From: Planctomycetales bacterium 71-10 | GTDB lineage: Bacteria > Planctomycetota > Planctomycetia > Isosphaerales > Isosphaeraceae | Assembly: GCA_001898385.1 (NCBI GenBank) | Contig: MKTT01000071.1 | Location: 1 to 64,000, forward strand | Length of the DNA stretch: 64,000 nucleotides | Reading direction: 5' to 3' | Part shown: one piece after another, positions 3,487 to 61,686 of the stretch | How the letters are laid out: each line of letters opens with the position of its first letter | Numbering within the stretch: position 1 is the stretch's first letter | Notes under the pieces: generated by a model | What the model was told of the DNA's origin: nothing | Seen by the model: only the letters and a program-made list of their open reading frames with translations | Databases searched by the model: none | Made by a program: the position numbers and the translations under genes

Positions 3487-5412
3487 ATGAAGCGAACCTT
3501 CGCGGTCGTCGTCCTCCTCGCCGCGCTCGGGGTGATGGTCAAGCTGGCCTTCAAACCCGCCCCGCCCCCCGCGCGCCCCGACGACGGCCCCGCGACGGCC
3601 CAGGCCCCGGCCGCCCCCGTCGGCTCCGAGGAGGACGCGCTCGTCGCCCGCTATGCGGACGCCGCCCCCGAGGTCCGCGACCTCGTGGCCCGCTCGGTCG
3701 AGCGCTACCGCCGCAACGCCGTGGCCGTGGAGCGGTCCGACGGCCTCCGCGGGCTGAAGCTCCTGGACCGGCTGGACCTGGAGGCCCTGTTCCTCTACGA
3801 GAAACACCCCACCGAGTTCCGCACGCTCCGCGACCTGCTGGACGACGACGCCGCGGCCGACCTCCTGCTCCATTGGCGGGAATACTTCGGCCTGAAGCGG
3901 GCCGACGACACCGATCGCAAGATCCTCATCGCCGAGCTGGCGGGCCTGACCCCTTCGCAACGACGGCTGGCCGCGAAGCACCCCTCCGCGCTGCCGCTGA
4001 TCCTCGCGGAGCCCGCGGGCGTCGCCGAGCTGATGGCGACGAGCGACGGCGACGCGACGCTGGTCGACCGCCTGGTCCTCCTCAGCCTGGTCAGCCTGGA
4101 GCACGGCGCCGCGGACCTGCGCTCGGCGCTGCGGACGGTCGAGGCCCACCCGACGCTCGCCCTCGAAGCCTTCCGCCTGCACGGCATGGAGGGGTTCGCC
4201 CTGGTGTTCCTGTACGGCCCCGTGCTGGAGGCCCTGGGGACGGCGGCGCCGCTCGACGAGAGCCTCGTCCTGCTGCGGGTGAACGCCGGGTTCGTGGACG
4301 AGCAGCTCCAGACCCACCGGCCGGAGACGGTCGCGCGGCAGCTGGCGCACGTCAAGGCGGCCGACCTCGTCGCGCAGGCCGGCGGCAGCCCGAACGGCCT
4401 GCGGCTCTCGGTCGAGTTCGGCCCCCTGGGCGACCGCGCCCTGGCGAAGGGGGGGGCGGACGCCGCCGACGTGGTCTTCGACTCCTACACCGACCCCGCC
4501 CTCCGCCGCCAGGCCGCCGCGGCCATCGCCGAGCACGGCGCGATGGCCCTGGCCATGCTGGAGAAGTACGCCTCCGACCCCGACTTCCGCGACGTCCTCC
4601 GCTCCTACGGCCCTGGCGTCATCCCCCCCATCGCCCGCGCCGACGCCGGCCCGGAGAACCTGGCCCATCTCCAGGCCAAGGGCCAGACCTCCTGGAAGGA
4701 GAAGCTGGCGAAGGCCGCCCTCTACCTGACGGGCGACGACGGCCAGTCCGTGATCCGGACGATCCGGGCCGACGGCCTGGATCGGGTGGCGAGCCTCTCC
4801 GACGCCGACCTGCGCTTCTACCAGTTCCTCCCCCTCTACGACATGCTCCACCTGGGCGACGTCCTCCGCCGCGGCTACGCCCCGACCACCGGCGAGGCCG
4901 CCTGGGCCCTCCTGGACGCCTGCTTCGTCGTGACCGACGTCCTCAGCCTGGCCGCGCTCCAGCCCGGCGCGGCCGCCGCCGTCGAGGCCGCCCGCACCGA
5001 GATGAAGGCCACCGCCCGCGAGGCGTCGAAGGCGGGCCTCGAATCCGCCGCCAAGGCCGGCGCCCGCGAGTCCGCCGACGCCGCCCGCCAGGTCGCCCGC
5101 TGGTGGGCCGTCCGCTCGGCCGGCGGCGTCTACCAGGTCTTGAAGCGGACCCCGGAGGCCCTGGCCCGCATGACCCTCGGCCAGCTCGCCGAGGTCGCCC
5201 GCCCCCTCGCCGCGAAGGCCGGCCTCCGCCTCGCGAACTGGGCCCCCATCACCTTCCTGAAGGACGGCGCCGAGGTCGTCCTCAAGATCCCCCCCGGACG
5301 CGGCCTCAAGTACCTCGGCGCCCAGCTCGCCCAGGCGGGCGTCGGCGTCGTCGGCATGCACAAGATGGAAGAACACTTAAGCTCGAGAAGGCCGCAAAAT
5401 CAACAGCCGTAA
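3487..5412 (+). CDS. Large membrane-anchored protein of unknown function
   Basis: 641 residues starting MKRTFAVVVL; an upstream in-frame TTG at 3397 would add 30 residues of proline/histidine-rich sequence and was rejected. Residues about 3-20 form a hydrophobic N-terminal anchor followed by a proline/alanine linker. The rest is rich in alanine, leucine and arginine helices (for example LVARYADAAPEVRDLVARSV), suggesting an all-helical envelope protein. Residues about 545-590 form an Ala/Glu/Lys amphipathic helix. No catalytic motif recognised. It resembles long planctomycete-specific hypothetical proteins; that comparison is from memory. Confidence 0.7.
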   Translation: MKRTFAVVVLLAALGVMVKLAFKPAPPPARPDDGPATAQAPAAPVGSEEDALVARYADAAPEVRDLVARSVERYRRNAVAVERSDGLRGLKLLDRLDLEALFLYEKHPTEFRTLRDLLDDDAAADLLLHWREYFGLKRADDTDRKILIAELAGLTPSQRRLAAKHPSALPLILAEPAGVAELMATSDGDATLVDRLVLLSLVSLEHGAADLRSALRTVEAHPTLALEAFRLHGMEGFALVFLYGPVLEALGTAAPLDESLVLLRVNAGFVDEQLQTHRPETVARQLAHVKAADLVAQAGGSPNGLRLSVEFGPLGDRALAKGGADAADVVFDSYTDPALRRQAAAAIAEHGAMALAMLEKYASDPDFRDVLRSYGPGVIPPIARADAGPENLAHLQAKGQTSWKEKLAKAALYLTGDDGQSVIRTIRADGLDRVASLSDADLRFYQFLPLYDMLHLGDVLRRGYAPTTGEAAWALLDACFVVTDVLSLAALQPGAAAAVEAARTEMKATAREASKAGLESAAKAGARESADAARQVARWWAVRSAGGVYQVLKRTPEALARMTLGQLAEVARPLAAKAGLRLANWAPITFLKDGAEVVLKIPPGRGLKYLGAQLAQAGVGVVGMHKMEEHLSSRRPQNQQP

Positions 5413-56341: not shown

Positions 56342-57361
56342 TCAACTCGGCCCTCCGCACCGCTTGTACGCCCCCGCCGGAACCGTCCACACCTCCCCCG
56401 GTTTCAGGAAGAAGTGCTCCCTGGTGAACGCGTCCGGCGACATGGCCAACGCCCGAGGTTCGGATGGCTTATCGGACACGAACTCCCGGCCTTTGGCGGC
56501 GATTTCCTCGACCGTCTGACCCTTCCTGATCGTGCTGCGGAAGTCCCGCTCAAGCCCAGCGATCCGCTGGAAGCGTTCCGGGGCGATGGACTTCACGCTG
56601 GCCCACTGGTCTGCGTCCCCGAAGATGCAGGCAAGACAAGAGGTTCTTCCCCAGCCGAGGGAATAACTCGGATGTGGGCGGACGTTCCACCGCCGGATTT
56701 CGTCCCAGACCTGCTCCTCGCTCCAGTCGATGACGTTCCGCCATTGGTGGACGGTGCGGCTCCGGGTGTTCGTCCGGTGCGGCTCGCTCTCGGCGTACCT
56801 GGCCCTGGCGGACGACTCCTGCCGCCGCTCCCCGGTGACGACCAGGATTTTCTTCCCCTGGTAGGCCGGATCATTGGCCAGCACGCGGGCCATCACGTCG
56901 ATCTTGAGATACGCGGAACACCAGCGGACGTTGAGGTCGGCACTGACCTGCGGAAATTTCAGCCGCGTCCCCGGCGTCTCCCGCTTCGTGGGCAGGGTGA
57001 CGGTCTCGCCGCCACGCTCATAGACCACCGGAGCCGTCGCCGTCCGGTCGCGGAGCATTTCACGGACGAACCCGCCTTCCCGCCAGGAGAAGACAACCGG
57101 TATGCCCAACGCCTCGGCGGTGGCCTTCACGTAGGCCCGCGTGCAAGGCCAGTCCATGAGGGCCTCGCCCTGGCCGTCGATATCGTGGTGGTGAAGCTCG
57201 ATCTTGGAGGGCGGGACGCCACGATCCAGCAGGTCAAGCAGGGAGGCGAGGCTGTCTTTGCCGCCGCTGTAACCCACCGCGATCACGTCGTACTGATCGA
57301 GGGGCAGGAGGCAGGAAGGCTCTGGTTCCTCGCTGAAGAGCGTTTTCTGGACCCAGGTCAC
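56342..57361 (-). CDS. PAPS-reductase family / DndC-like protein
   Basis: 339 residues. The N-type ATP pyrophosphatase loop is GYSGGKDSLASLLDLLDRG (SGGKDS at 32-37). Cysteines in DWPCTRAYVK, VRWCSAYLKI and GRTSCLACIFG may bind an iron-sulfur cluster, as in DndC-type proteins. Many phages carry a family member; roles proposed include sulfur transfer to DNA or nucleotides. It overlaps the next gene by four bases and is operonic with a DNA methyltransferase, which supports a modification role. The exact reaction is inferred. Confidence 0.75.
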   Translation of the reverse strand: MTWVQKTLFSEEPEPSCLLPLDQYDVIAVGYSGGKDSLASLLDLLDRGVPPSKIELHHHDIDGQGEALMDWPCTRAYVKATAEALGIPVVFSWREGGFVREMLRDRTATAPVVYERGGETVTLPTKRETPGTRLKFPQVSADLNVRWCSAYLKIDVMARVLANDPAYQGKKILVVTGERRQESSARARYAESEPHRTNTRSRTVHQWRNVIDWSEEQVWDEIRRWNVRPHPSYSLGWGRTSCLACIFGDADQWASVKSIAPERFQRIAGLERDFRSTIRKGQTVEEIAAKGREFVSDKPSEPRALAMSPDAFTREHFFLKPGEVWTVPAGAYKRCGGPS

Positions 57362-57519
57362 GCGGCCTCAACGGGGGTGAGCTGGAACCGCCACTGATAC
57401 TTGTCGATCCGCTCTTCCACGACCGGCAAGCGAACGGTCAGTTGGTTCGAATCGGTGTCGATCTGGATTTCCAACGGTTCCGGAGGATCGTTCGCCAATA
57501 CCGTGAATTCGATCTTCAT
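57358..57519 (-). CDS. Tiny protein between modification genes
   Basis: 53 residues, beta-rich (KIEFTVLANDPPEPLEIQID, QLTVRLPVVEERI). Coupled by ATGA overlaps to the reductase-like gene and the next small gene. No family. Confidence 0.5.
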   Translation of the reverse strand: MKIEFTVLANDPPEPLEIQIDTDSNQLTVRLPVVEERIDKYQWRFQLTPVEAA

Positions 57520-57689
57520 CGTGCTTCCTCCGTGGTCTCTGGGTTCTCGTCCCTGAACGCCCCTCCCTCGCACATCCGGTAAGTCATCTGCCTGACATAC
57601 TCGCTCTCGCCCAGCCTGCCCTCGGATACGGCGATTCGTGCCGCGTAGAGGGCACAGAGGTGGAAGCGGTCGAGGCCAGGGAGGATCAT
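57516..57689 (-). CDS. Small helical protein
   Basis: 57 residues starting MILPGLDRFHLCALYAARIA. ATGA overlaps with the methyltransferase stop and the next gene show coupled translation. Function unknown. Confidence 0.5.
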   Translation of the reverse strand: MILPGLDRFHLCALYAARIAVSEGRLGESEYVRQMTYRMCEGGAFRDENPETTEEAR

Positions 57690-59374
57690 GCTGCCCCGCC
57701 GAACAGGTCTGGCTGGGCTGGCCTTTCCGGCTCCGCCTTCGCCATCGGGACAGTGGCAGGCACGCCCTGGTCTAGGACGGCTCCCCCTCCGGCGACGCGG
57801 GCGCAGGCGATGTCGAAATACTCCGGCTCCCGCTCGATGCCGATGAACCGGAACCCTTCCAGAAGGGCGGCCTTGCCTGTCGAACCGCTTCCGAGGAATG
57901 GATCCAAAACCGTTCCGCCCGGTGGGGTCACGAGGCGGCACAGGTAACGCATCAGATCGGTCGGCTTGACCGTGGGATGCGTGTTCTTCCGCAGGATCGC
58001 CCGGTAGGGGTCGCCGTCTGAGAAGCCGCGACCGCTCTCGTTCTTAACTCCTGCGGGCCGATTCTCAAACCGCTCCAGCCCCTCATCCCGGTCCTTCCGG
58101 CTCGCCTTGGCACAGTAAAAGAAGCGTGCTGCGGAACCCGAATCGCCCCTCGGCTGAGTCGCTGGGCGCCCGTCGAACTGACCATAGACGTTGTTCGTCT
58201 TGCTGCTAGGCTCGTCGCCCGTGACGGCCCGCGACTGGCCTGGGGCGTCGGGGAAGCAGGAGAGGACTTCATCGCTGCCGTCGTGGATCAGATTGGCGGG
58301 CCATCTTCCGGCCGGATCTCCGCCACGAATGCCGGGCTTGGCGGCGAAGTTCGTCCCGCCCGTTTCCGTGTAACGTCGATCTTGAGATGCTTCGCTGACC
58401 CTCTGGCGGCTTTCTCCGGTCGGCTGCACCCGGCAGCCCTCGATCTTGAGGGCACCGGTGCCGTGGGCTAGGACGTTCTGAGCAACTGTCCCTCTGAAAG
58501 GCTTCCGGGCGACCACGATCGGCTCATGAGCTGGCTTCAGAGCCGTGCCCCAGCCCTCCCAGTCGCCTTCGAGGTTGTGCGATTTGGGGAATCCACTGCC
58601 GAAGACCCACATTATCTGGTCGCGGATCTCGAACCCCGCGTCCTCGATACCGGCTGAGAGACGGTGATAGCCCCGCGGAGAACCGAAGGCGAGGAGGTGC
58701 CCCCCCGGTTTCAACACGCGATAACATTCCTTGGCCCACAGCCTGCACCAGTCTTGAAACTTGTGGCCTGACCAAGGGACATCCGTGTACCTCCTTACGT
58801 CCTCTAGGCGTGCCTTCAGTACGGCGGCCCGCGTTTGATCGGCTGTTCCCGTCCATCGGTTGCCTCTTGGCCGGTCAAGCCATTCCTCCACCGCCTCAGC
58901 CCAGATCTCGAAGTCGAGAGACTTCTTGGCCGTCAGCGGGTACTTCCTGAACAGCGATACCAGCCGGTCACACCCTTCCTTATCTTGCACGACAAACACC
59001 GATTGCGGCTTGCTTGCCCCGTCGCCGTCGAGATCATGTATCGAGCCGTATCCGACAAACCTCATGATCCGCTCCAGCGCCGCTCTGTCGTCGCGGCGAA
59101 GCTTGAGTTGAAACGCACAAACGTGCGTGCCCCGCTCGTGTCTCTGGACCCGGAAATGACCTTCGCCATCCGTGAAACCTGCGAGCCAATACCCGAAACC
59201 GCAGTCTTCCCGGCCATCAAAGTTGTCCCAGCCTTTCCCCATGAATCCGCCTGGGAACGCGTAGGGTGGATCGGTGACGATGCTGTCCACCGACTCCGGT
59301 GCGAGTGTCTTCAGAGCCTCAATGCAGTCGCCGAGGTGGAGGGTCGCTCGGTGGAGTTGAACGGTCCGGGTCAC
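57686..59374 (-). CDS. DNA methyltransferase with in-frame LAGLIDADG domain
   Basis: 562 residues. Methyltransferase parts: DPPY at 35-38, GFMGKGW, then YRVLKPGGHLLAFGSPRGYH, ALKPAHEPIVVARKPFRGTV, THPTVKPTDLMRYLCRLVTP and the SAM site DPFLGSGSTGKAA near residue 490. In relatives, the GKGWD segment leads directly to the LKPGGHLLAFG region. Here about 145 residues (roughly 57-200) are inserted between them: GYWLAGFTDGEGHF is a LAGLIDADG helix and VFVVQDKEGCDRLVSLFRKY with PLTAKKSLDFEIWAEAVEEW are the rest of a single-motif homing endonuclease. The insertion keeps the frame and lacks the usual intein ends (no terminal His-Asn), so it is not a simple intein. Both activities look intact by motif; neither is shown. 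Confidence 0.8.
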   Translation of the reverse strand: MTRTVQLHRATLHLGDCIEALKTLAPESVDSIVTDPPYAFPGGFMGKGWDNFDGREDCGFGYWLAGFTDGEGHFRVQRHERGTHVCAFQLKLRRDDRAALERIMRFVGYGSIHDLDGDGASKPQSVFVVQDKEGCDRLVSLFRKYPLTAKKSLDFEIWAEAVEEWLDRPRGNRWTGTADQTRAAVLKARLEDVRRYTDVPWSGHKFQDWCRLWAKECYRVLKPGGHLLAFGSPRGYHRLSAGIEDAGFEIRDQIMWVFGSGFPKSHNLEGDWEGWGTALKPAHEPIVVARKPFRGTVAQNVLAHGTGALKIEGCRVQPTGESRQRVSEASQDRRYTETGGTNFAAKPGIRGGDPAGRWPANLIHDGSDEVLSCFPDAPGQSRAVTGDEPSSKTNNVYGQFDGRPATQPRGDSGSAARFFYCAKASRKDRDEGLERFENRPAGVKNESGRGFSDGDPYRAILRKNTHPTVKPTDLMRYLCRLVTPPGGTVLDPFLGSGSTGKAALLEGFRFIGIEREPEYFDIACARVAGGGAVLDQGVPATVPMAKAEPERPAQPDLFGGAA

Positions 59375-59403
59375 GCGGCCTCGTCGGTCGCCGTGGCTTT
59401 GAT

Positions 59404-59682
59404 CTACTTCCGCACCATTTTCAGAACGGGCTCGGACTTCGCCCCGTGGTCAACAGCCCAATGGATTACGCCTTCGGCAGCTCGGAGAGCTTCAAGTAGC
59501 GCTGGAGCTGCCCGGTACAGCGGATCGGCCTCGATGTACGCCCTCACGGCCTCCTCAATAGGACTGATGAGTGCCTCGCCCTTCACGCCCGCCATGAACT
59601 GGCATTCGCGTTCGGATTGGGCTTCAGCGAATCGGCGGCGTGCTGCTGTTGAGGCGGCGGGATTCAGTTTGATTTGAGACAT
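59404..59682 (-). CDS. Small phage protein upstream of methyltransferase
   Basis: 92 residues. PALLEALRAAEGVIHWAVDH is a phrase common in small phage operon proteins. It starts after the long repeated leader AAGGATGGTTCACC and lies 30 bases upstream of the methyltransferase start. Confidence 0.55.
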   Translation of the reverse strand: MSQIKLNPAASTAARRRFAEAQSERECQFMAGVKGEALISPIEEAVRAYIEADPLYRAAPALLEALRAAEGVIHWAVDHGAKSEPVLKMVRK

Positions 59683-59689
59683 GGTGAAC

Positions 59690-59720
59690 CATCCTTGGTG
59701 AGTTGTTGGGGTGGGGCGAC
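59690..59720 (-). repeat. Repeated 31-bp operon leader, copy 1
   Basis: CATCCTTGGTGAGTTGTTGG followed by GGTGGGGCGAC is identical in copy 2 at 61693-61723. On the minus strand it ends in the ribosome site AAGGATGG. A GGGCGAC/GGCCGCCC hairpin follows on its far side, after the upstream gene. It likely marks a transcript-processing or translation-control unit. Confidence 0.65.
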
Positions 59721-59742
59721 CCGTAGGCCGCCCCCGTGGTTG

Positions 59743-61686
59743 CTATGCGGCCTTCCGTGCCTTCTTCGCTTTGGCGGGCTTCTCGGGCTGCGGGAGCGAG
59801 CCGAACTCCATCCCGGCGGGGAGCCAGTTGGTCAGGCGTTCCACCTGCTCCGGCGTCTTGCCGTGCTTCTTTGGCCCCGCGAACGCCTGATGCAGATCCT
59901 CGGCTAGAGCGGCTTTCTTGCTGTTCCGGCGGTGCGAGGCCCACTGCTGGCCGAGCAACTCGGCACCGAGGTCGAGCAGCTGGTCCTTGGTGAGGCGGCC
60001 AAGGTAGTTGTCCTTGGTCGGTCGCCAGTATCCGGCCACGTTCGCCCCGGTCTGGGCCAGTGCGATGTCGTAGGCCGTCCGGCGGTCGTCGTCCGGCCCC
60101 GCCTTCGGAAGTAGTTTCGGCTCCAATGTGCTGGCCACGCAGTAGGCGAGGATGGCGTGCTTCTGCTCCAATGTCAGGGCTTGCAGGGCGGCGAACTGGT
60201 CCTGCTGGTTGTCCAGTTCCAGCCAATCCAGCGGCAGGGAATCCTTGATCGGCTTCAACTGCTCCGCCACGAACTCGCGGGCAGCCGAAGATGCGGGGCC
60301 GCCGAAGTTCGCATTGAACGAGACGTTCGGCCCGTCATAGGCGTGGCTGAGGCCGCAGCAGTTCTTGGCCGCCTTGAACACCAGCAGGTCGAACGCGATC
60401 TGTGGATGCTTGGCGATCTCTGCCTGTGCGGCTCCCAGCCGGTAGGCCTTCAGGTCATCGATGAGCGGCTTCGAGAGCCCAGTCGGTTTGGCTTCCGCCT
60501 CGGACTTCCGCGCTTCGCGGACATCCTTTTCCGGCTCACCCACTTCCTTGCTGTCCTCCGGCTTCATCAGCCCCATTTCGATGCGGACCTCGCCGTTGCC
60601 CACCGTGACGTAGCACCCGGACATCGCCTTCTGCTCGGGGGTGAAGACGCCGTATTCCTCGATCTTCGTCTCAAGTTCGTAAAGCTTGTCTTGCACCCCT
60701 TCGTGCTTCTCGCTTAGGGCGTCCCACTCCTCGGAATCGCTGTCCATCTCGTCGAGATGCTTGTCGAGGGCGTCGAACTCGGCTTGCAGCTTCTCCTTCT
60801 CGTCCAGCCATTCCTTCGGGGCATCGAGCGGTACCGGCTCCAGTTCTTCGCACTGGTTGGCGAACTGCCAGTCCCGCTCAAGGGCGGTTTCCACCCACTT
60901 CCAGCCGTCCGCTTTCAGTTGCTCGGCGGCGGCTTCCAGCTTCCGGCTGGCGAGTTCCCTCACGAGGTCGGGGCTGTCGAGATAGGTGTCGTCCCCGAAC
61001 AGGTCGCGGCGGATAACCCCGCCAGCGGACTCGTAGGCCTCCAAGCCGACGAACCGGGCGAGCGTCGAGTCGCCTTTGATCGAGTTCTCGGTGAGGATGC
61101 CGCGGATTTCTCGCGGGCTGTCCTTCTGCCAGCCGCTCAGCCCCTTCCACACCTTCACCTGACGCTTCTTGTCGTCGGTGACGGTGAAGGCCATGAGCGA
61201 TTCGAGGGTCATCTCCCCGGCCCGGTAGGCGGCCAGCAGCGAGGGGGCTACGCGGGCCAATTTCATCCGCTGCTCGACGTGCTTCGCCGTGACGCCGAAG
61301 TTCAGGGCGATCTCCTCGGCGGAACGTCCCTTGTCGGCGAGGGCCGCGAACGCCTCGAACTCGTCGGCAGGGTGCATGGCGGAGCGGACGATGTTTTCCG
61401 CGAGGCTCAATTCCGCCGCCTGTTCCTCGGAGGCGATCTGGCAGGGGACGGCGTAATCCTCCGTCAGCTTGCCCTCGGCCTGTAGTTGCTGGAGGGCGGC
61501 CAAGCGGCGTGCCCCGGCGATGACGTGATAGGTGCCGTCCCCGGCTTCCGTGACGACAAGATTCTGCATCAGGCCGTGGGCGAGGATCGAGGCTTTCATG
61601 TCCTCGATGCCGCTCTGCGTCAGCGTCTTGCGAGCGTTAAGCGGGCTTTTCGACAGCTTGGTGATTTCGATGTTTTGGGTAGTCAT
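59743..61686 (-). CDS. ParB/Srx-family protein
   Basis: 647 residues starting at MTTQNIEITK, because AAGGATGG lies eight bases upstream; an ATG nine bases earlier is too near that site. The N-terminal ParB nuclease/CTPase core is visible (LSKSPLNARKTLTQSGIEDM, HVIAGARRLAALQQLQAEGK, ELSLAENIVRSAMHPADEFE, AEEIALNFGVTAKHVEQRMK). The remainder is long and helical with a charged middle. No ParA is encoded in the window. It may act in partition, or as a phage transcription or nuclease factor as in other ParB-carrying phages. Confidence 0.75.
   Translation of the reverse strand: MTTQNIEITKLSKSPLNARKTLTQSGIEDMKASILAHGLMQNLVVTEAGDGTYHVIAGARRLAALQQLQAEGKLTEDYAVPCQIASEEQAAELSLAENIVRSAMHPADEFEAFAALADKGRSAEEIALNFGVTAKHVEQRMKLARVAPSLLAAYRAGEMTLESLMAFTVTDDKKRQVKVWKGLSGWQKDSPREIRGILTENSIKGDSTLARFVGLEAYESAGGVIRRDLFGDDTYLDSPDLVRELASRKLEAAAEQLKADGWKWVETALERDWQFANQCEELEPVPLDAPKEWLDEKEKLQAEFDALDKHLDEMDSDSEEWDALSEKHEGVQDKLYELETKIEEYGVFTPEQKAMSGCYVTVGNGEVRIEMGLMKPEDSKEVGEPEKDVREARKSEAEAKPTGLSKPLIDDLKAYRLGAAQAEIAKHPQIAFDLLVFKAAKNCCGLSHAYDGPNVSFNANFGGPASSAAREFVAEQLKPIKDSLPLDWLELDNQQDQFAALQALTLEQKHAILAYCVASTLEPKLLPKAGPDDDRRTAYDIALAQTGANVAGYWRPTKDNYLGRLTKDQLLDLGAELLGQQWASHRRNSKKAALAEDLHQAFAGPKKHGKTPEQVERLTNWLPAGMEFGSLPQPEKPAKAKKARKAA

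Follow-up and report, generated by a model that had tools for sequence, protein, structure and literature searches.

A LAGLIDADG endonuclease domain lies in frame, with no recognizable splicing element, inside a phage adenine methyltransferase and appears to have moved between methylase genes

RESULTS

A methyltransferase gene with an in-frame endonuclease domain

A phage-type DNA methyltransferase gene in a 64,000-nucleotide stretch of Planctomycetales bacterium 71-10 DNA (positions 1 to 64,000 of contig MKTT01000071.1; here called the window) contains a LAGLIDADG endonuclease domain in frame. The reading that we consider likely is that of a homing endonuclease that does without splicing, has become a permanent domain of the methylase in an insertion-tolerant loop, and spreads by homing or gene conversion. 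The relevant features of the window are as follows.

57686..59374, minus strand: open reading frame (ORF) of the DNA methyltransferase with its embedded LAGLIDADG domain (562 aa, GTG start)
59261..59272, minus strand: motif IV, DPPY (sequence)
59225..59245, minus strand: conserved FMGKGWD, the left flank just before the insert (alignment with relatives)
58763..59224, minus strand: in-frame insert, residues 51-204 (comparison with insert-less relatives)
59159..59185, minus strand: LAGLIDADG motif, LAGFTDGEG (DGEG kept in all aligned relatives)
58892..59185, minus strand: LAGLIDADG_1 domain, residues 64-161 (Pfam E=1e-14; same bases in a whole-genome search)
58745..58759, minus strand: FQDWC, the right flank and first conserved methyltransferase residues past the insert (alignment)
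58694..58714, minus strand: LKPGGHL, methyltransferase core segment past the insert (sequence)
57878..57910, minus strand: SAM-binding motif I region, VLDPFLGSGST (sequence; CcrM matches the same region)

The ORF matched the Pfam N6_N4_Mtase family (E=4.5e-34), and the PHROGs DNA methyltransferase family phrog_67 covered its residues 1-528 (7.5e-80). Because both the methyltransferase and the LAGLIDADG_1 matches fall in one ORF, the in-frame arrangement described in an earlier note on this DNA was confirmed. DPPY lies near the N terminus and the SAM-binding LDPFLGSGSTG near the C terminus, and CcrM is the best solved relative of the protein by sequence and by structure. The placement of DPPY before the SAM-binding FxGxG, together with the CcrM-like fold, indicates a beta-class N6-adenine DNA methyltransferase. 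Judged by its sequence, the gene product is an orphan adenine methyltransferase of a phage, with predicted methylation activity. Its neighbors encode a portal protein, a terminase, a head protease, a major head protein, a tail sheath and tail fiber proteins, which identifies the contig, part of a 7.7-Mb bacterial assembly, as a contractile-tailed phage or prophage.

An antisense open frame of 280 codons (58835-59677 of the window, plus strand) runs over the insert and is probably a by-product of high G+C content. We also read the other frames of 58701-59300 for a hidden out-of-frame nuclease like that of the phage ShiLan, and this candidate was rejected, the longest stretch being an antisense one of 164 residues.

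The insert occupies a loop of variable length

DPPY and LKPGG are separated by 182 residues in this protein, compared with mostly ~25 or 71 in insert-less relatives. Alignment with such relatives, as the earlier note had proposed, yielded natural empty alleles, the nearest of which (L233, L243 and L237) have ~5-7 residues at the insert site; the right flank matches in all three, and in L233 the site reads WD-THDTPA-GFQQWC. This leaves ~147 residues extra here. The borders given in the earlier note, residues 57-200, had to be widened slightly to 51-204. The insert position is a length-variable loop between motif IV and the LKPGG segment. Near-identical relatives lack the insert, and we therefore rejected the idea of a target-recognition domain that close relatives ordinarily carry. 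Chance is excluded as the source of the fusion, since the same insert is found at the same place in >10 distinct phage loci. L237 has a separate insertion near the insert site, which lengthens the interval from DPPY to FMGKTWD by ~270 residues.

The LAGLIDADG_1 domain is near complete, with positions 1-101 of the 102 in the Pfam model aligned. The glutamate of LAGFTDGEG is presumably the catalytic acid, as expected from I-OnuI and I-CreI, and DGEG is retained in every embedded and free-standing relative that was aligned.

An AlphaFold model of the 562-aa protein was built on a 72-sequence alignment. LAGLIDADG residues 58-195 and the methyltransferase core mostly had pLDDT values of >90, and low-confidence linkers (~40-56 and 196-204) leave the relative placement of the two domains unfixed in the model. 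VIA-align matched the model (range 8-546) to CcrM with a Z score of 24.7 over 236 residues (rmsd 2.8), and residues ~57-204 to I-OnuI variants, I-LtrI and I-TnaI with Z scores of 15-17 at about 20% identity. The insert thus has an I-OnuI-like LAGLIDADG fold with the acidic catalytic motif present. The model and these matches indicate that the two folds are compatible and that both ends of the insert join the methyltransferase in a loop whose length varies naturally. The insert is predicted to fold independently of the methyltransferase. This prediction and the single open frame agree with the earlier suggestion that the two domains may be one protein.

Distribution of the insert

The window insert is 51-53% identical over 152 residues to those of Taj, Kersh and other phages, at the same site and between the same flanks. 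It is also present in IMG/VR phages (L001-L003, L091-L099 and L101), and diverged versions occur in L112, L117-L119 and Rhodobacter phage RcMrWorf gp52 (L090). Free-standing relatives exist at about 30-40% identity. No plasmid copies were found. The window copy was the sole LAGLIDADG_1 match in a search of the whole genome, and the domain was not found in five congeners.

The insert-bearing methylase of L092 and L097 is divided farther downstream, past NLIL, into two ORFs; a tail that is almost the same in both (SVPEDQYALRDDVTPGQLRQL-EWMDANA) precedes the stop, possibly another mobile insertion. A methyltransferase of a different type (TSPPY; L132:2305-4245) has a LAGLIDADG domain elsewhere in the protein, which suggests independent splice-less insertions.

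Selection acts on the protein

The inserts of L001 and L002 share 94% protein identity (pN 0.047) at saturated synonymous sites (pS 0.88), and their substitutions are distributed 11/4/95 over the three codon positions. Further diverged pairs likewise show an excess of third-position changes in the insert. This excess indicates that selection maintains the protein and not the RNA, and the pattern suggests that the endonuclease has been functional over long times. As synonymous sites are saturated in such older inserts, not every transfer can be recent, and we dropped the high insert identity alone as proof of recent transfer between L001 and L002.

The insert shows no sign of splicing

The usual view is that a homing endonuclease can invade genes harmlessly only with the help of an intron or an intein, and LAGLIDADG proteins are common in group I introns. 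The earlier note had left open removal of the insert at the RNA level, but an Rfam search of both strands of 57000-60000 gave no match up to E=5, and the intron reading was rejected. The reading frame is open across both borders in all relatives listed, and the ~460 nt of the insert are nearly all conserved coding sequence, leaving little room for a ribozyme core. Selection on the protein with the RNA sequence free to vary is a strong argument against an intron. RNA splicing thus appears very unlikely from these data, and we give scarcely any credence to a group I or similar intron, even though the published insert resembles the endonuclease of a group I intron (PMC9957025).

An unusual intein whose Hint domain escapes recognition is just as hard to credit. 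It would fit the in-frame place in a conserved region, and an intein occurs at another site in related methylases (PMC9957025). However, the endonuclease fold alone fills the insert, and in Pfam searches LAGLIDADG_1 alone matched there, with no Hint splicing domain found. No conserved nucleophile was found at the left border, where the aligned relatives have Asn, Ala, Lys, Arg or Ser first; C57, the sole Cys near that border, is not conserved among relatives, and the alignment shows no C-terminal His-Asn at the right border. The claim that this is neither a free-standing endonuclease nor an intein was thus upheld, the conserved splice motifs having been sought at the borders without success. 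The intein identified in the same methylase family by Gosselin et al. indicates that a genuine intein looks unlike the window insert.

Other insertions were observed in these genes and nearby. The Akhila methylase has a further one, with an intein-like start (CLTADTEVLT), at a different site. In L117-L119 a few extra bases after WVYGSG, around position 3627, disrupt the reading frame of the methylase close to where relatives have an intein-like insertion (AWLYG). A nearby ORF in L099 (5222-6451) with an ATPase-like GLPGVGK motif holds an apparent intein start (ALALDTPLPTPSGWTTMGEVQVGD).

Movement between methylase genes

Genes with and without the insert are intermingled in a tree built from the methylase body. 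A reduced body tree gave 9 changes for 10 rows and rejected a single insert-bearing clade (p-AU 1.8e-4), to be read in light of long branches and a recombining gene. The final body tree omits L083, L085 and L101, whose methylase body contains further insertions, as well as the long-branched L090 and L112. In the insert tree, 12 inserts form one clade (support 100/99). As reconstructed from these alignments, the histories of the insert and of the methylase body disagree.

Seven mycobacteriophage-type alleles vary at 6 of 459 nt in the insert versus 120 of 366 nt in the flanks (Fisher 4e-40, only a guide because sites are not independent). Their near-identical block overruns the insert by ~33 nt on the left (NLSFMAKTWD) and 32 nt on the right, and the stretch matching the left-flank FMGKGWD belongs to the co-transferred block in the mycobacteriophages. 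Between L137 and L102, fourfold-degenerate sites differ at 0 of 89 positions in the insert versus 24 of 142 farther downstream in the gene.

Of two metagenome phages, L001 has the filled allele and L048 the empty one; they share ~95-98% identity upstream of the methylase gene and mostly 91-97% downstream, and the far C-terminal part of their methylases is 95% identical. Where they mainly differ is a stretch of ~830 nt centered on the insert. A second pair, L002 and L025, is less close. Together, the mycobacteriophage block, the L001/L048 pair and the trees support horizontal movement of the insert between methylase genes. An insert with co-transferred flanks is the pattern that homing leaves, and plain recombination could leave the same.

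DISCUSSION

The computed support for a splice-less homing endonuclease consists of an in-frame fusion, intact motifs, selection at the protein level, horizontal spread, and near-isogenic filled and empty alleles, to which the model adds predicted separate folds. The insert would be translated within the methyltransferase and stay there, without protein or RNA splicing in vivo. A loop that accommodates added sequence would let the methylase keep its fold, so that the element would need no splicing device. The endonuclease domain would probably work as a homodimer; when two phages share a cell, it would cut insert-free alleles in the conserved FMGK-WD/FQxWC region, and repair off the filled allele would copy the insert and short flanks into the new gene. 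The methylase would go on methylating DNA despite the added domain.

Recombination between methylase genes could, however, shift the block without any cut, and phage methylase genes recombine a lot (PMC9957025). It is conceivable, if unlikely, that the LAGLIDADG domain was co-opted as an additional DNA-binding or target-recognition part, its nuclease secondary or lost, and that the block moves by recombination of methylase modules. The very strong protein constraint seen between L001 and L002 and the location of the loop after the catalytic DPPY motif would agree with co-option, but the DGEG nuclease motif is kept in every copy, L048 keeps an otherwise very similar methylase without the insert, and the insert hardly varies among mycobacteriophage methylases that have themselves diverged. 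The domain might contribute to methylation specificity, but this idea is unsupported, given that closely similar methylases lack the domain. We think it improbable that the endonuclease, besides being active in homing, also works as part of the methyltransferase, its DNA contacts steering methylation and the methylase modifying the cleavage site in its own genome; if this were true, element and host enzyme would protect each other. Methylase and nuclease are known to share one chain in type IIG/IIB enzymes, and this protein likewise holds two candidate activities, so that the methyltransferase might protect DNA while the LAGLIDADG domain cuts unmodified DNA of the host or of rival phages. Such one-chain restriction-modification is most improbable, as LAGLIDADG enzymes recognize long sites, close relatives lack the insert, and the insert spreads as a block. 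Gosselin et al. (2023) also raised a restriction-modification reading and judged it unlikely (PMC9957025).

The sequence evidence thus points to a homing endonuclease that spreads without a splicing device by way of an insertion-tolerant loop. It opposes the published view of vertical inheritance and extends the insert well beyond actinophages, and natural filled and empty alleles are now at hand for a direct comparison of homing.

The class itself, splice-less LAGLIDADG domains in mycobacteriophage methylases, is known already. Gosselin et al. described an actinophage methylase family with three insertions: an intein, the ShiLan domain, and a LAGLIDADG "second homing endonuclease" present in nine cluster F mycobacteriophage methylases, e.g., Taj_79 (Taj gp79), where the inserts form one clan and transfer was not strongly supported (PMC9957025). 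Arsenault et al. (2025) likewise state that this insert seems vertically inherited and has neither intein nor intron parts detectable (PMC11855218). The window protein has a homologous insert and methylase, at the same position and with no intein or intron, but its contig is that of a contractile-tailed phage within a bacterial assembly, and our comparison supports transfer. What is new is the insert's occurrence in a phage of a bacterial genome, among phages from metagenomes and, as a diverged version, among Rhodobacter phages, as well as its mobility between methylase genes, which the sequence comparisons support, contrary to the published vertical inheritance. The ShiLan domain is also a mobile endonuclease of the same gene family with no detectable splicing, but it occupies another site, is an HNH nuclease and is read out of frame (PMC11855218). 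The LAGLIDADG inteins of the family share the in-frame endonuclease (PMC9957025), but inteins are excised by a splicing domain, which the window insert does not have. The I-OnuI/I-LtrI family and I-TnaI share the fold and catalytic motif but are not embedded in a methyltransferase, and a single chain of I-OnuI or I-LtrI contains two LAGLIDADG repeats, in contrast with the single motif of the window insert.
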